This document shows, piece by piece, positions 5,754 through 25,356 of a DNA stretch of 64,000 bases (position 1 is its first letter; each line of letters opens with the position of its first letter). This stretch comes from Acidimicrobiales bacterium. GTDB lineage: Bacteria > Actinomycetota > Acidimicrobiia > Acidimicrobiales > Aldehydirespiratoraceae. The notes under the pieces are model-generated. The model searched no databases. It was not told where the DNA came from and saw nothing but the letters and a program-made list of their open reading frames with translations. The DNA lies in the NCBI GenBank assembly GCA_029247365.1, contig JAQWLJ010000038.1, forward strand, positions 1 to 64,000, read 5' to 3'. Position numbers and translations under genes: made by a program.

Positions 5754-5893
5754 TCATACCCGAGTCTCGGCACGACCCGCACCGACAAGCCGTGCCTGAC
5801 GCTGAGGTCTGATTCCATTGAGCGCGTCGAGGACCACGGGTCAGGATCGATCGTTGGGCGCCGCAGCATCCGGCGAGGGTAGCGTCCGACCCA

Positions 5894-8959: not shown

Positions 8960-9449
8960 GGTCAGATTCCTCTGGAAGGTCGTGGCGGTCTTCGTAGTCG
9001 GCGAACCGCTCGGCGACCCAGCGGCCTACCGGATCATCACCGCCGGCGAGATACCAGGCGTAGTGCGCGTGCAGGCACTTCACTCCGTTGCGGGTTCCGC
9101 CCACGCCGCCCGAAGGCCGGGGACCATCGTGACCGGCGGGGATCTCGGCGTCGCGTTCGGCGGCGTAACAGACGTGAGCTGCATTGATCGCGGCGAGTCC
9201 AACATCGAGTTCGGCGCGCCGGACGCCACCGTCACCCTCGAGTCGTCCGACAATGCGGCGTTCGTACTCCCCGGCCAGCCAGTACAGCGTCGGCATTGGA
9301 CGACCACTCTCGAGGATGGGCGCGTTACGGAGGACCACCGGATCATCATCGGTGTTGCGCACCACGACTTCGTACGCGCCCGCCGGCTCGCGGCCAAGTA
9401 ACTCGGCCACACGGATGCGGTCACCCGCAGGATCGACCTGCTGATTCAT
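8952..9449 (-). CDS. DUF501 domain protein
   Basis: This 165-residue protein matches the actinobacterial DUF501 family. Its recognisable core is LGREPAGAYEVVVRN, the strongly conserved PMPTLYWLAGEYERR-type stretch and GGVGGTRNGVKCLHAHYAWY. Function is unknown. In mycobacteria it sits between ftsB and ppx2. Here it keeps ppx as its 3' neighbour (8-base overlap) but has lost contact with ftsB, replaced at its 5' side by a CoxG-like gene (4-base ATGA overlap). Confidence 0.9.
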   Translation of the reverse strand: MNQQVDPAGDRIRVAELLGREPAGAYEVVVRNTDDDPVVLRNAPILESGRPMPTLYWLAGEYERRIVGRLEGDGGVRRAELDVGLAAINAAHVCYAAERDAEIPAGHDGPRPSGGVGGTRNGVKCLHAHYAWYLAGGDDPVGRWVAERFADYEDRHDLPEESDHV

Positions 9450-10084
9450 CGGCCCGCCACCCGCACAAATCGACGTCGCCGCAGACGCCGTACAGCGGGT
9501 CGCCCCAAGGCCAGCACTGCGGCCAGCGGCAGCAAGCGCTTCATGATCGGACGACGTGCCGTGTCGAGAAGGTCGAGCGCCTCAGGCTCGGGCATCTCGA
9601 TCCGCGGGCCTCCGGTTGGGACAAAGACATCGCTCCCAAGGTGCGTTTCGACAGCAAACGACGCCGCGAGGTTGCCAGCGAACTGGGCCGTGAGCGCCGT
9701 GCTTACCTCGGTGATGACACCGCTACTCATCTGGGCGAAGCGACCCCCGATCTGGAGATCGGTGTCGACGTTGACCTGGGTCGAGTCATCCGACAGCGGC
9801 TCAAGCCGAGCCGTGATGTGCGCCTCGGCATCGCCATGGTTACCAGCGCCGGTCGCTTGCACCGTGATTCGACGCCGATCGTCGTCGTAATTGAACGTGG
9901 CATTGCCTTCGAAGCGGGCCGCAAGCACGCCGAGACGCACCGAGACGATGCCGTCATAACGGTCGCCGTGGACTGCGGTGAGCTGCGCCCCTGGGACACA
10001 TGGGGCCAGGCGGCTCGGATCGTGCAGGAACTGCCAAGCCTCGTCGACGGGACGGGCGATCGAGAACGTGTCGCTCAACTGCAC
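9446..10084 (-). CDS. SRPBCC / CoxG-like carbon-monoxide-dehydrogenase subunit G family protein
   Basis: This 212-residue protein has a START/SRPBCC-like hydrophobic cavity domain (residues 1-145: 'PVDEAWQFLHDPSRLAPCVPGA' region, GNATFNYDD, GGRFAQMSSGVI) followed by a C-terminal hydrophobic stretch and an Arg-rich tail (LLPLAAVLALGRPAVRRLRR). That is the architecture of CoxG, which helps anchor or mature CO dehydrogenase and related Mo hydroxylases at the membrane. It lies 1 base downstream of a MobA-like gene and near XdhC, two more Mo-hydroxylase accessory types. No coxSML structural genes are in the window. Confidence 0.85.
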   Translation of the reverse strand: MQLSDTFSIARPVDEAWQFLHDPSRLAPCVPGAQLTAVHGDRYDGIVSVRLGVLAARFEGNATFNYDDDRRRITVQATGAGNHGDAEAHITARLEPLSDDSTQVNVDTDLQIGGRFAQMSSGVITEVSTALTAQFAGNLAASFAVETHLGSDVFVPTGGPRIEMPEPEALDLLDTARRPIMKRLLPLAAVLALGRPAVRRLRRRRFVRVAGR

Positions 10085-10085
10085 C

Positions 10086-10688
10086 TCAACCCCAACGCCG
10101 AAGGTCTTCGAGGGTGTCGATGTCGTGCGGGTTTCCCTCGACGGGGACCGGCCGCACGAGATCCGGCCGCGACCGCATCAGCGCACGCGCGCCCTCGTCA
10201 CCGCTCACCGGCAGGCTGGCCCACATCGCCGCCGCCAGCCTGACCGGCGGACGAAGATCACCGTCATAGCGCGCCGACGCAAGGTCCTCGTCGACGACCG
10301 CTACGGCATTCCAGATCTCGGTTGTAACGCCAGGACTATCGCCGAGCCCAACGATGATCACACCGTGCCCCCGCGCATCGGCGTAGGCGATAGCGGCCCG
10401 GATCGACGTCGCCTGGCCGTCCTCCCAGAGTTCGTTGTGGAGAAGGGTGACGTCATCCGGCACGATCGACGCGAGGTCAACAGCTCCACTGACAACCACG
10501 ACCTCGTCGACATTGGCTTCGCGCGCTGCGTCGATGACACGACGAACGATGGGAACTCCATCGATTTCCGCCAGCAGCTTGTGCTCGTCTCCGGCAAAAC
10601 GTGAGCCGGCTCCCGCAGCGAGAATTACCGCTGCGATCGACTGGCGGCGTTCATGGGGTCGGGGTTCAGCGTGGTCGGACTCGGTCAC
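10086..10688 (-). CDS. MobA/MocA-like molybdenum cofactor nucleotidyltransferase
   Basis: This protein of about 200 residues has the NTP-transferase signature IAAVILAAGAGSRFAGDEHKLL at its start and GLGDSPGVT around the metal-binding Asp. The family attaches CMP or GMP to molybdopterin, or acts on similar sugar-1-P substrates. With XdhC and CoxG beside it, a role in making MCD cofactor for xanthine- or CO-dehydrogenase-type enzymes is the best reading (inference). The GTG at 10688 is favoured because TAGGCT lies 6 bases upstream; GTG 10694 is also in frame. It leads the operon that continues into CoxG, DUF501 and Ppx. Confidence 0.85.
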   Translation of the reverse strand: MTESDHAEPRPHERRQSIAAVILAAGAGSRFAGDEHKLLAEIDGVPIVRRVIDAAREANVDEVVVVSGAVDLASIVPDDVTLLHNELWEDGQATSIRAAIAYADARGHGVIIVGLGDSPGVTTEIWNAVAVVDEDLASARYDGDLRPPVRLAAAMWASLPVSGDEGARALMRSRPDLVRPVPVEGNPHDIDTLEDLRRWG

Positions 10689-10694
10689 CAACAC

Positions 10695-10704
10695 AGCCTA
10701 GGGT
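10695..10704. promoter_or_regulatory. Bidirectional -10 element with shared TA
   Basis: AGCCTAGGGT contains TAGGGT on the forward strand (10699-10704), 7 bases before ATG 10712, and TAGGCT on the reverse strand (10700 back to 10695), 6 bases before GTG 10688. The two hexamers share the central TA at 10699-10700, so a single element seems to serve both divergent leaderless genes. Confidence 0.6.
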
Positions 10705-10711
10705 CGCTCAC

Positions 10712-11191
10712 ATGGACCCGACCGTTCCCGCCCCTGCTGCGCCGCCAACGCTTCGGGTCACAATGTTGCTCGCCGACTCGGCCCAAGTGGCCGACCGCAA
10801 GCTGTACGTCCTTGGCGGGGGCGTCTCGGTCATCGGGCCGCGCCCCCAACCAATAGGCGTGGCAATCCGCATCGAAGTTCCGTGGGATCGGGCCAACGTG
10901 CCCCATCTGTGGCGACTCGACCTCCTCGATGAGGACGGCCACCCGGTGATGATCAACGAGCAGCCGCTCGTGGTGCATGGGCGTTTCGAGGCTGGCCGAC
11001 CCGCAGGGTTGAAGGCCGGTACGCCTTTGTCGGTGCCCCTTGCGATCACATTCCCGTCTCTACCGGTCCAGCCGGGACAGAGCTACACGTGGCAATTGTC
11101 GATTGATGAAGCGACCCACGTCGACTGGCGACAGTCATTTCATGTACGCGCCGTGCAGACGCAGCCGACCGCACCACCGAAGCCCACCTGA
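10712..11191 (+). CDS. DUF6941-like protein
   Basis: This is a 159-residue soluble beta-rich protein. The core (LLADSAQVADRKLYVLGGG, then IRIEVPWDRANVPHLWRLDL and a C-terminal FPSLPVQPGQSYTWQLSIDE) is the pattern of the actinobacterial DUF6941 family, of unknown function. The N-terminus and C-terminal tail are Pro-rich. ATG 10712 has TAGGGT 7 bases upstream. It is the only forward gene inside the XdhC-MobA group and its 3' end lies 2 bases from the convergent XdhC stop. Confidence 0.75.
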   Translation: MDPTVPAPAAPPTLRVTMLLADSAQVADRKLYVLGGGVSVIGPRPQPIGVAIRIEVPWDRANVPHLWRLDLLDEDGHPVMINEQPLVVHGRFEAGRPAGLKAGTPLSVPLAITFPSLPVQPGQSYTWQLSIDEATHVDWRQSFHVRAVQTQPTAPPKPT

Positions 11192-11193
11192 CG

Positions 11194-12300
11194 TCAGCCG
11201 TGGATCGGACCGCTCGTCGCCGACAGCGCCGCGACCGTTCGGCCAGTTCGTTCGGCGATAATCTCCGCCACGATCGAGATGGCGGTCTCCTCTGGTGTCC
11301 GAGCACCGAGGTCGAGGCCGATTGGTGAGCGCAGCCGAGCGAACCCCGCGTGATCGACGCCGGCATCAACGAGGCGCTTCGTGCGGTCGTCATGGGTCCG
11401 CCGGCTACCCATCACGCCGATGTAGCCGACGCCCGTTGCAAGCGCCCCAGTAACGGCCGGAACGTCGAACTTGGCGTCGTGGGTGAGAATGCAAATGGCA
11501 TCTCGCGGTCCAAGCCCTTCGCCCACCTCGGTCAGCAGTCGGTCAGGCCAGTCGACGACGAGGTCGTCGGCCATCGGAAAGCGCTGACGGGTAGCGAAGA
11601 CCTCACGGGCATCGCAGACGGTGACTCGGTAGCCCAGAACCTTCGCGACTTTGGCCAGCGCGGCGGTGAAGTCGACTGCGCCGAAGATCAGCATTTGGGG
11701 AGGCGGGGCGAACGACTCGATGAACACCGAAACCACGTTCTCGCGTGCCTCGCCATGCTCGCCGTAGTGCCGCAGACCCGATTGGCCGGCGGCGAGCTCG
11801 CCGCGGGCGTCGCGCTCGATGACTCGGTCAAGACCTTCGTCGCCGAGGGTCCCGATCGTGAGCGGGCCAGAGGCCTCATCGGTGCGCACCAGAAGCTTTC
11901 GACCTGCGTTGGGACCCTCGATTACCGTCGCCAAGGCCACCGCCCGTTCGGCCGAGATGTCAGCCTTCAGCGGCGCGTACCAGTCGGCCGGATCAAATGT
12001 TTCGATGAAGAGGTGAATCGTGCCGCCGCACGTGAGCCCGACTGCAAAGGCCTCGTCATCGCTGTATCCGAACGTGACGACTCGGTGGGCGTTGTTCTCG
12101 ATCACGTCGAGCGCCTCGATCACCACGGCGCCCTCGACACACCCTCCGCTTACCGAACCGCGAACATCTTGGTCAACGGTGACGGCCATGGCCGCGCCCG
12201 GAAGCCGAGGGCCAGAGCCGTCGAGGTCGACGACTCGGGCGATAGCAGCCGGTGTGGCGGACCCGACCCAACGGTCGAGCGGGTTGAAGAGCTCTTTCAC
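11194..12300 (-). CDS. XdhC/CoxI-family molybdenum-hydroxylase maturation protein
   Basis: This 368-residue protein has an N-terminal XdhC/CoxI domain (ATPAAIARVVDLDG, GSVSGGCVEGAVVIEA with the conserved GC, FGYSDDEAFAVGLTCGGTI) and a C-terminal Rossmann domain (IFGAVDFTAALAKVAKVLGY, VCDAREVFATRQRFP, ending GARTPEETAISIVAEII). XdhC binds Mo cofactor, promotes sulfuration and inserts it into xanthine dehydrogenase-type enzymes. GTG 12300 is chosen because TAGGGT lies 7 bases upstream (12308-12313); GTG 12309 is the longer alternative. Its partner enzyme is not in the window. Confidence 0.92.
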   Translation of the reverse strand: MKELFNPLDRWVGSATPAAIARVVDLDGSGPRLPGAAMAVTVDQDVRGSVSGGCVEGAVVIEALDVIENNAHRVVTFGYSDDEAFAVGLTCGGTIHLFIETFDPADWYAPLKADISAERAVALATVIEGPNAGRKLLVRTDEASGPLTIGTLGDEGLDRVIERDARGELAAGQSGLRHYGEHGEARENVVSVFIESFAPPPQMLIFGAVDFTAALAKVAKVLGYRVTVCDAREVFATRQRFPMADDLVVDWPDRLLTEVGEGLGPRDAICILTHDAKFDVPAVTGALATGVGYIGVMGSRRTHDDRTKRLVDAGVDHAGFARLRSPIGLDLGARTPEETAISIVAEIIAERTGRTVAALSATSGPIHG

Positions 12301-12370
12301 GCCCTCCACCCTACGCCTGCAGGGCGAGGGACCCTAGATCGCCAAACCCGGAGACCATGGCAGCCGAGAC

Positions 12371-12517
12371 TCAGCCGGCAAAGCGGAGCTGATCAAGCGC
12401 AAAGCGAGACGCAGCGAGCGCAGTGACGGCGGCACCGTTGCGCCGAAGGTCCTGATGTCGGTTCCAGGCCTGCAGCAGTTCGTCGAAGTCAAGGCGAAGA
12501 TCGTTGGTGCTGTTCAT
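12371..12517 (-). CDS. Small uncharacterised protein, 48 residues
   Basis: The frame reads MNSTNDLRLDFDELLQAWNR onward to a natural TGA (48 aa), helical and charged, ending LDQLRFAG. It is too short for usual calling, but ATG 12517 has TAGAGT exactly 7 bases upstream (12525-12530), the same layout as the surrounding genes, and AGAGG just before the start. It diverges from the Lrp/AsnC regulator gene, so it is a natural candidate target of that regulator. I do not recognise a family. Confidence 0.5.
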   Translation of the reverse strand: MNSTNDLRLDFDELLQAWNRHQDLRRNGAAVTALAASRFALDQLRFAG

Positions 12518-12530
12518 GACCTCTACTCTA

Positions 12531-12544
12531 GGAAGGTTCTTTCC
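12531..12544. promoter_or_regulatory. Imperfect palindrome in an AT-rich divergent spacer
   Basis: GGAAGGTTCTTTCC (arms GGAA/TTCC) sits directly upstream of the -10 of the 48-residue gene and within the AT-rich spacer to the Lrp-family gene. Lrp proteins bind degenerate AT-rich palindromes and often regulate themselves and their divergent neighbour, so this is a plausible operator (inference). Confidence 0.35.
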
Positions 12545-12642
12545 ATCAAATCCGTGTTTCTCACCCCGTCAATCCCTCTGATGCCCCTACTTTCATAAAC
12601 TGAATCAATATTTCGGCGTTGTTTTCACGGTAGCCTCGTTCA

Positions 12643-13080
12643 ATGCCCGACACAATCGATCAGCAGATACTTGACGAACTCCAAAGCGATGGACGCATCT
12701 CGTATCGCGACCTCGGTGAACGGGTCGGACTCTCGGCCCCCGCTGTCACCGAACGGGTCCGCCGCCTGGAGCGCCGCGGCGTGATCACGGGTTACACCGC
12801 CACGATCAACCCCGCCGCGCTGGGCTCACCGATCCTGGCGATCATCCGGGTTCACTCCGCTGGGCCCAAGGCACCCGATATCGACGCTCTGGCCGCATCG
12901 ATGCCGGAGGTGATCGAGTGCAACCGAGTCACCGGCAGTGAGAGCCACGTTTTGCGAGCCTGGTGCCGCGACCTCGCCCACCTGGACGAGTTGATCGAGG
13001 CCTTCTGGCAATACGGCGACACGATCACCAATGTGGTCACCGCCACCCCTGTTCAACGGCGGTCGTGTCGCTTCTGGTGA
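12643..13080 (+). CDS. Lrp/AsnC-family transcriptional regulator
   Basis: This 145-residue protein has the standard two-part layout: winged helix-turn-helix DNA-binding domain (DTIDQQILDELQSDGRISYR, then LGERVGLSAPAVTERVRRLE) and a RAM/AsnC effector domain from about residue 65. Members sense amino acids or related small molecules. TAGCCT lies 6 bases upstream of ATG 12643. The nearest divergent gene encodes the 48-residue protein. It converges on ftsB with 16 bases between stops. Confidence 0.93.
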   Translation: MPDTIDQQILDELQSDGRISYRDLGERVGLSAPAVTERVRRLERRGVITGYTATINPAALGSPILAIIRVHSAGPKAPDIDALAASMPEVIECNRVTGSESHVLRAWCRDLAHLDELIEAFWQYGDTITNVVTATPVQRRSCRFW

Positions 13081-23653: not shown

Positions 23654-24373
23654 TCAGTCCGTCGGCCACTGAGCCGGCACCGCTTTCGCAACGCGCCCAG
23701 CCTCCGGGTGGGCGCCGTGGACGAACCACGTTGACCCGCTCCCGGCAAGACGAGGCCGCTGACCAGTTGCGTCGGCCAGTTCATCGCGCCAACGCGCCAG
23801 TTCTGGCGCAACGACGAGGGCAGCCGGCTCGAGGTCATTGCCGTTATCACCCGTAGGGCCGCCCATCTCGTCCCACGCGTTGTACACGACGGGAGTCGAG
23901 CAGAACACAGGCGGCGAGACGAGCGTGAAGGTCTGCTCGACGAAGGGGAGAGAATCGATGATCTCGCCAATGCCGGTCACCTGCGCCCGCCCGCCAACCA
24001 AACAAAACGCCACGTCGGCACCCAGGCCAGCCGCCGCCTCGAGGTCGATGAACCCCGCCCAGCGCAGGATCGCCGCAGCATCAGAGGACCCTCCGCCGAG
24101 TCCCGCCCCAGCAGGGATGTCCTTGTAGATCGTGACCGCGGCATCACGGTCGACCAGCCGAAGCGCTTGGGTGACGAGGTTGTCGTCGTCAAGACCAATG
24201 CTCTCAGCCCCAGCCCGTCCCTCGATCGTGAGCTCCGAACCGTTGCGGAGCTCAAGGGTGTCGTGGAAATCGAGAGAGACCATCTCGGCGTCGACGAGGT
24301 GATAGCCGTCATCACGCACTCCGGTCACGCGGAGGCTCAGCGTCAACTTCGCAGGGGCCACGAGTCGGATCAC
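23654..24373 (-). CDS. ispE: 4-diphosphocytidyl-2-C-methyl-D-erythritol kinase
   Basis: This 239-residue GHMP kinase of the MEP isoprenoid pathway shows the N-terminal VAPAKLTLSLRVTGVRDDGYH, the ATP loop DIPAGAGLGGGSSDAAAILR and the C-terminal ARLAGSGSTWFV-like GHMP motif (PRLAGSGSTWFVHG). It is slightly short for IspE. The GTG at 24373 has TAGTCT 6 bases upstream in an element shared with the divergent metallo-beta-lactamase gene. It is the ispE expected next to rsmA and rpf in actinobacteria. Confidence 0.95.
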   Translation of the reverse strand: MIRLVAPAKLTLSLRVTGVRDDGYHLVDAEMVSLDFHDTLELRNGSELTIEGRAGAESIGLDDDNLVTQALRLVDRDAAVTIYKDIPAGAGLGGGSSDAAAILRWAGFIDLEAAAGLGADVAFCLVGGRAQVTGIGEIIDSLPFVEQTFTLVSPPVFCSTPVVYNAWDEMGGPTGDNGNDLEPAALVVAPELARWRDELADATGQRPRLAGSGSTWFVHGAHPEAGRVAKAVPAQWPTD

Positions 24374-24379
24374 GCCCGC

Positions 24380-24389
24380 AGACTACGGT
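24380..24389. promoter_or_regulatory. Bidirectional -10 element with shared TA
   Basis: AGACTACGGT gives TAGTCT on the reverse strand (24385-24380), 6 bases before ispE GTG 24373, and TACGGT on the forward strand (24384-24389), 7 bases before ATG 24397. The two share TA at 24384-24385, the same arrangement as at 10695-10704. Confidence 0.6.
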
Positions 24390-24396
24390 GCTCTTC

Positions 24397-25356
24397 ATGG
24401 CGCAGCTCGGCACCCGCCCCTACGAACACGGCCTCCTCGACCTCGGCAGCGACAACTACGCGTGGCTACAGCCCGACGGCGGTTGGGGCTGGAGCAATGC
24501 CGGCCTGATCGTCGACGGCGACCAGGCGCTCCTCATCGACACCCTCTTCGACCTACCGCTGACCCACGCGATGCTCGACTCGATCTCCGCTGCGCTTCCC
24601 GGCGTCGACATCACGACGCTCGTCAACACCCACAGTAACGGCGACCACTGCAACGGCAACGAGTTAGTGCACGGCGCAGAGATCATCTGCTCGGTCACCG
24701 CCGCCGAAGAGATGGCGCACGAGAGCCCCGAGATGATGGCCGGGCTACTGCGGGCCGCCCCCGAAATGGGAGTCATGGGTGAGTTCTTTCTGCACTGTTT
24801 CGAACAATTCCAGTTCGCGGGAATCAACCGACCCGACCCCGATACGACCTTTACCGGCGAGATCACCAGAACGGTCGGCGACACCATGGTCAACCTGGTC
24901 GAGGTCGGCCCCGCGCACACCGGTGGCGATGTCTTGGTTCACGTCCCGGGCCGCTCCACCACCTACACCGGCGACATCTTGTTCGTCGAAGGACATCCAA
25001 TCTTGTGGGCCGGATCGATCCCCGACCTCCTCCAAGCCCTCGATCAGATCGTCGCGTGGAATCCAGAAACGATCGTTCCAGGTCACGGACCAATTACCGA
25101 TCTTGCCGGTGTGGCCGAGATCCGTTCGTACTTCGAGTACTGCCACACCGAGGCACGACGCTGCTTCGACGCGGGAATGGACATCGCGACCGCAGCTACC
25201 CGGGTCTCGCTCGACAAATACGCGAACTGGGGTGATCCCGAGCGGATCATCACCATTCTCGACAGCTGTTACCGCGAGTTCGGGCACGTTGCCCAACCGT
25301 CGGAGATCACCGACCTCTTCGGCCAGATGGCAACCGTTTGGGCCGCCGGCCGCTAG
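24397..25356 (+). CDS. Metallo-beta-lactamase-fold hydrolase
   Basis: This 319-residue MBL-fold protein has the metal-binding motif NTHSNGDHCNGNE, where the first position of the common HxHxDH reads H-S-N-G-D-H, so the second His is an Asn. Further ligands: EVGPAHTGGDVLVHVPGRST, TGDILF and VPGHGPITD. With a C-terminal helical tail this resembles the broad 'MBL-fold hydrolase' group near cyclase/lactonase types; the substrate is unknown. It interrupts the ispE-rsmA adjacency of the core block, and its TAG shares CTAG with the convergent rsmA stop. Confidence 0.82.
   Translation: MAQLGTRPYEHGLLDLGSDNYAWLQPDGGWGWSNAGLIVDGDQALLIDTLFDLPLTHAMLDSISAALPGVDITTLVNTHSNGDHCNGNELVHGAEIICSVTAAEEMAHESPEMMAGLLRAAPEMGVMGEFFLHCFEQFQFAGINRPDPDTTFTGEITRTVGDTMVNLVEVGPAHTGGDVLVHVPGRSTTYTGDILFVEGHPILWAGSIPDLLQALDQIVAWNPETIVPGHGPITDLAGVAEIRSYFEYCHTEARRCFDAGMDIATAATRVSLDKYANWGDPERIITILDSCYREFGHVAQPSEITDLFGQMATVWAAGR

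Follow-up and report, generated by a model that had tools for sequence, protein, structure and literature searches.

Two divergent genes stand head to head in the window, a stretch of 64,000 nucleotides from an uncultured actinobacterium that was analyzed as a whole. The forward gene (10712..11191, + strand) encodes a DUF6941 protein of 159 aa (PF22091, E 1.6e-11), and the reverse gene (10086..10688, - strand) encodes a MobA-like NTP transferase (NTP_transf_3, PF12804, E 5.9e-25) of 200 aa when read from GTG 10688; both genes are predicted to be leaderless. The intergenic region between the two coding sequences is exactly 23 nt long (10689..10711) and holds the symmetric element AGCCTAGGGT (10695..10704), which contains two TANNNT hexamers, one on each strand. 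The predicted -10 hexamer of the DUF6941 gene, TAGGGT (10699..10704, + strand), ends 7 nt before ATG 10712, while that of the mobA-like gene, TAGGCT (10700->10695, - strand), lies 6 nt (10694-10689) before GTG 10688. T10699 and A10700 are common to the two opposite-strand hexamers, which have an offset of 4 and thus overlap in the manner of bidirectional promoters, and A10695, the final T of the reverse hexamer, is the reverse-specific base. Both sides show the conserved TANNNT at 6-8 nt from the start that marks leaderless genes, at 7 nt for DUF6941 and at 6 nt for mobA, the latter kept in 8/8 loci of the genus. A preliminary description had placed TAGGCT for the mobA-like gene and TAGGGT for the DUF6941 gene on a single TA, with the starts 6-7 bases away and about 23 bases between the coding sequences, and our reading of the sequence agrees with it on each of these points.

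The preliminary description was silent on an ambiguity in the start of the mobA-like gene, the frame of which offers three start codons, namely GTG 10688, TTG at 10691 and an alternative GTG (10692..10694, - strand) that is a GTG in 8/8 genus loci. Beyond GTG 10694 and TTG 10691 the frame continues with GCT and then with an in-frame TAG (10698..10700, - strand, read 10700-10698), which is made by the -10 itself and sets the upstream limit, so that the start can only be one of these three codons. When the sequence and the N-termini were compared, no in-frame start was found to remain downstream before the conserved LAAG motif. The upstream TAG, together with this lack of a further start before LAAG, pins both gene starts to the element. 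GTG 10688 fits the predicted transcript start; GTG 10694 is equally conserved and, as the mobA-like start, would need a different transcript start.

The mobA-like gene is the first of a minus-strand gene run. A CoxG-like gene (9446..10084, - strand) begins one base past it and would be co-transcribed with it from the predicted reverse promoter. On the far side of the DUF6941 gene lies xdhC (11194-12309, - strand), which has the same direction as mobA and coxG, and the convergent stop codons of DUF6941 and xdhC are 1-2 nt apart in 8/8 genus loci. Over 9446-12309, the DUF6941 gene (+) thus lies antisense between the co-directional xdhC and mobA-coxG, forming a candidate noncontiguous operon. A scan of the minus strand of 9400-12800 found no terminator-like site.

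Predicted leaderless promoters are common in this organism. In a genome sample of 1.18 Mb that includes the window, 1110 genes were called with our own simple codon-usage caller, and 1107 of them had enough upstream sequence. Distances of 6, 7 and 8 nt between TANNNT and the start were found for 104, 85 and 39 of these genes, a total of 228, compared with about 2-3 genes at each other position. A -35 consensus was not visible in the 228 leaderless-type genes of this sample, and a search for -35 and sigma-70 consensus promoters found none. Among the same 228 genes, the base after the hexamer was rarely A (4%, avoided) and most often C (49%, preferred), and A and T were rare directly before the hexamer (8% and 7%). 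According to the available text of two earlier papers, TANNNT at about leaderless distance marks leaderless genes in Actinobacteria (PMC3160421), and promoters of M. tuberculosis have TANNNT without a conserved -35 (PMC3898074).

The preliminary description had suggested checking whether A-NNN-TA-NNN-T recurs between close divergent starts, and it does recur. The pattern was searched as a start codon, 6-8 nt, A-NNN-TA-NNN-T, 6-8 nt and a second start codon, with spacers of 12-14 nt as the shifted-spacing control. This genome contains 27 pattern sites versus 3 with shifted spacing. The corresponding counts were 160 versus 12 in nine genomes of the genus, 896 versus 226 in 51 genomes of the family, and 2118 versus 1714 in 119 genomes of the phylum. 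The 68 of the 119 phylum genomes with no more than 7 control matches gave 530 versus 138, the pattern exceeding the control in 60 and equalling it in 5; the remaining 51 gave 1588 versus 1576, that is, no enrichment where chance matches abound. With a backwards-pattern control (AT for TA), this genome gave 27 versus 15 sites at the right spacing and 3 versus 12 at the wrong spacing. We judged this control weak because AT was taken to be commoner than TA in a genome of 64% GC, and therefore used the spacing-shifted patterns instead. An N7/N7 scan of 345 class genomes, in which the backwards control was often equal to or above the pattern, was uninformative by that control.

The caller's starts are ambiguous or wrong here (10694 and 10763), and the pair tests were therefore made with start-codon patterns and reading-frame agreement. 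In the 1.18 Mb sample, 17 two-sided matches were found, whereas 3.5 would be expected if one side were genuine and the other start codon random. Among the divergent leaderless pairs of this sample, 17 had the shared-TA offset (4), 9 of them gene-confirmed, and no other offset occurred more than twice. Some stretches of the sample had been included because earlier pattern scans matched there, so the offset test was repeated on six wholly fetched contigs, which gave 10 pairs with the shared TA (5 gene-confirmed) and again at most 2 for every other offset. Divergent leaderless pairs prefer a single geometry, that of the shared TA. For comparison, the TANNNTA geometry (offset -1) was seen in 1 such pair versus 17 for the shared TA, and separate -10s at fixed N7/N7 spacing gave 6 sites over 31 spacings genome-wide versus 3 for the single shared spacing. 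The 9 confirmed shared-TA pairs correspond to 5% of the 180 divergent pairs called in the 1.18 Mb.

Coding-like ORFs flank both sides at 21 of the 27 sites in this genome; at the other 6 a coding-like ORF is missing on one side, and thus the pattern alone is no proof of two genes. At 18/27 sites, one or both of the sister species G006 and G007 retain the two genes together with the shared TA, and at 14 sites both species do. The 27 sites have only A-NNN-TA-NNN-T in common, while their middle bases differ. Pfam was run on the 20 two-sided pairs other than mobA/DUF6941, most of whose proteins were truncated to about 200 aa. The pairs consisted mostly of unrelated-looking metabolic or housekeeping genes, and their members included an NAD-dependent DNA ligase, a CDP-alcohol phosphatidyltransferase with HIT, CofC with glycerol-3-phosphate dehydrogenase, and a pyridoxamine-phosphate-oxidase family gene with CrcB. 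Pfam assigned none of the 40 proteins flanking these 20 sites to a transcription-factor family, and 12 of the 40 had no match at 1e-5. The contents of the pairs fit plain two-way constitutive expression. Co-regulation of functionally linked genes was also considered and was not supported, as the 20 other pairs are mostly unrelated and include no regulator family.

The DUF6941 gene is present in 8 of the nine genus genomes, and the decamer AGCCTAGGGT is invariant in all 8, as is the 14-nt core CACAGCCTAGGGTC (10692-10705). Fourfold degenerate sites that are invariant in the genus number 19/69 in DUF6941 and 6/69 in mobA. Comparison of the DUF6941 locus covered 96 rows, of which 10 were second copies, leaving 86 distinct loci (8 in the genus and 78 others); the related genome records are nearly all MAGs. 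A TANNNT precedes the DUF6941 start by 5-9 nt in 89 of the 96 rows, or 79 of the 86 distinct loci. A10695 is present in all eight genus loci, and an A at the equivalent position was found in 0/21 of the other family loci with the DUF6941 hexamer (rows L009-L030). The position is occupied by an A in two more distant rows, L180 and L226, at neither of which a two-sided pair was found. Conservation of the shared TA, which the preliminary description had expected in relatives, therefore stands within the genus (8/8 loci) and fails outside it, where the shared form was found at none of the 78 distinct loci. As the shared form was not found beyond this genus, its conservation rests on 8 related genomes.

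Retention of the sharing in the genus and its absence from the 78 other loci indicate a derived state, and the comparison makes the TA sharing look like a derived trait peculiar to this genus. Among its sister genera in the family, only the DUF6941 hexamer is kept; the mobA-like start lies further off and is usually closely preceded by a CAGACT-like box of its own. On the simplest reading, the mobA-like gene would have moved beside the DUF6941 gene and taken over its TA; in this genus it may have given up a more distant start with a -10 of its own and gained A10695, thereby using the TA of its neighbour. Within rows L009-L030, most of the 12 loci compared have CAGACT, CACACT or CACAAT about 6-8 nt before the mobA-like start. 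This CAGACT-type box, with C for the first T of the -10, is possibly a conserved weak leaderless promoter of the mobA-like gene. More distant DUF6941 genes (L187-L230, from Acidimicrobiales-like MAGs, with protein identity of about 42-52% and mostly no mobA neighbour found) also keep a leaderless-type -10, often CCTAGGCT, the position of which is strikingly stable.

Based on these results, we consider it likely (probability about 0.78) that AGCCTAGGGT acts as a bidirectional housekeeping promoter with a shared TA and that both of its mRNAs are leaderless. The sequence evidence supports the earlier proposal that one symmetric -10 drives two leaderless genes in opposite directions; from the sequence, gene calls, spacing, recurrence and conservation we infer the two-way transcription, the start points, the sigma factor, the low activity and the direction of the evolutionary change. 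In this model, the self-complementary TA would serve as the upstream TA of the TANNNT -10 on each strand (TAGGGT and TAGGCT), and RNA polymerase with the main sigma factor would bind as a single molecule at any one time, facing one way or the other. The first base of either start codon, 10712 (+) or 10688 (-), would be the first base of the RNA, so that the two RNAs would start 24 bp apart and both be leaderless. Because no -35 would be needed, one -10 could serve both ways and the intergenic region could shrink to 23 bp. The genome would hold about 20 promoters of this kind, most of them flanked by metabolic genes with no relation to each other, and expression from the element would most likely be low and constitutive in both directions, with little interference.

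Two polymerases should not fit on AGCCTAGGGT at once. The claim of the preliminary description that this geometry forces the polymerases to compete found no support, as five bidirectional promoters tested in E. coli were too weak at the basal level for measurable competition, according to the available text of PMC12825309. In the same text, Warman et al. (2026) report that competition appeared only with one direction substantially activated (PMC12825309). With little basal competition in the E. coli tests, mutual exclusion at the element would be structural, and competition is not forced.

The main rival is a one-way DUF6941 promoter, with mobA read from xdhC, antisense across DUF6941, and the reverse hexamer incidental; we regard it as unlikely, and such read-through could coexist with a local reverse promoter. 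The gene order suits it, since xdhC, mobA and coxG run in one direction and enclose DUF6941, which runs in the other, and so do the nearly abutting stops of DUF6941 and xdhC and the minus strand free of terminator-like sites. Noncontiguous operons, in which an opposite-strand gene is nested among co-directional, functionally related genes as in xdhC/DUF6941/mobA-coxG, are moreover already in print (PMC7154746 and others, in the parts available to us). The layout here, known from sequence alone, is compatible with them, but a local reverse promoter explains mobA expression without read-through. A10695 and its spacing to the GTG are invariant in 8/8 genus loci although this A is dispensable for forward function, as the other family loci without it indicate. 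Read-through would also leave unexplained the recurrence of the two-sided geometry at about 20 other sites, and the sister genera, in which mobA is closely preceded by a -10-like box of its own, argue against it as well.

It is highly improbable that the near-palindrome is instead the operator of an unknown regulator between both genes, its symmetry coming from a protein other than the polymerase. Such an operator could account for the 14 invariant bases at the eight genus loci, which include the non-consensus middle positions GCC and GGG, but the middle bases are precisely what the 27 sites do not have in common. The distances to the start codons cluster at the spacing typical of leaderless genes, distant DUF6941 genes for which no mobA neighbour was found keep TANNNT at the same distance, and the 40 proteins flanking the 20 other sites include no transcription-factor family; all three speak against an operator. 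The least probable reading is chance, that is, a real forward promoter with a second TANNNT fortuitously at the right distance from the GTG. Of the 17 two-sided matches in the 1.18 Mb sample, about 3.5 would be expected to arise in this way, and the 6 of 27 sites without a second coding-like ORF are in line with it; at this locus, however, Pfam shows both genes to be real, no other position is open to the mobA start, and the core does not vary among the 8 genus loci.

The founding study of prokaryotic bidirectional promoters is reportedly a Nature Microbiology paper of 2021. As described in the portions available of the work of Warman and Grainger, these promoters resemble AGCCTAGGGT in having one symmetric -10 for both strands and a poor or absent -35. 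They are defined there by divergent TSSs 7-25 bp apart (PMC10268837), and in the examples described the TSSs are separated by 18, 10 and 23 bp (PMC12825309). The TSS spacing predicted here, on the premise of two leaderless genes, is 24 bp, which falls within this range and next to the 23-bp class. Unlike in the promoters covered by those texts, both RNAs are predicted to be leaderless here and 23 nt separate the two start codons. The 18-bp class, the most frequent in E. coli and Salmonella and equated by us with the TANNNTA geometry, is nearly absent among the leaderless pairs here (1 versus 17), and the rarity of A after the -10 (4% of 228) would disfavour it.

The leaderless TANNNT promoters of Actinobacteria and Deinococcus-Thermus, as presented in the accessible parts of PMC3160421, PMC3898074 and PMC12340547, likewise have TANNNT shortly before the start codon and serve about one fifth of the genes; a conserved -35 is lacking in M. 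tuberculosis. These parts treat one gene at a time and do not discuss the sharing of a TA by two leaderless genes, and the words "divergent" and "bidirectional" are absent from the text of PMC12340547 that was available. Closely juxtaposed divergent promoters are described as common in M. tuberculosis, with one divergent gene pair having leaderless mRNAs (PMC3898074, available text). No report of shared-TA leaderless gene pairs was found among the titles, abstract openings and text passages covered in the open-licence literature.

Judged by its sequence, AGCCTAGGGT appears to be an unusually compact, leaderless variant, without a -35, of the bacterial bidirectional promoters already known. The odds seem evenly balanced for a broader statement, namely that about 20 gene pairs per genome have no regulatory DNA beyond one shared -10, that they are leaderless without a -35, that their start-codon distance (22-26 nt) is fixed by the polymerase, and that the bias against A removes the 18-bp class dominant in enterobacteria. 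If true, the minimal control region of two genes in bacteria would be about 23 bp, and such sites could arise by one gene taking the TA of its neighbour; comparison of the genus with its sister genera suggests a case in which one gene appears to have captured the -10 element of the other. Bidirectional -10 symmetry and leaderless TANNNT promoters would thereby be joined in a discrete architecture that is countable from sequence, recurrent and conserved. It would offer about 20 natural sites per genome for the study of basal polymerase interference, free of a 5' leader and of any evident -35. When genomes are annotated, two divergent start codons that flank A-NNN-TA-NNN-T and lie 22-26 nt from each other would be a strong cue for both true starts.

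The pattern occurs at two further places in the window. At the third match, AGGGTAGCGT (5876..5885), the reverse ORF has 39 aa only and is not coding-like, and this site is probably a one-way promoter. The second shared-TA element, AGACTACGGT (24380..24389), lies between a GHMP-kinase-like gene (-) and a metallo-beta-lactamase-fold gene (+), and this pair (24371-24399) is conserved in both sister species examined.
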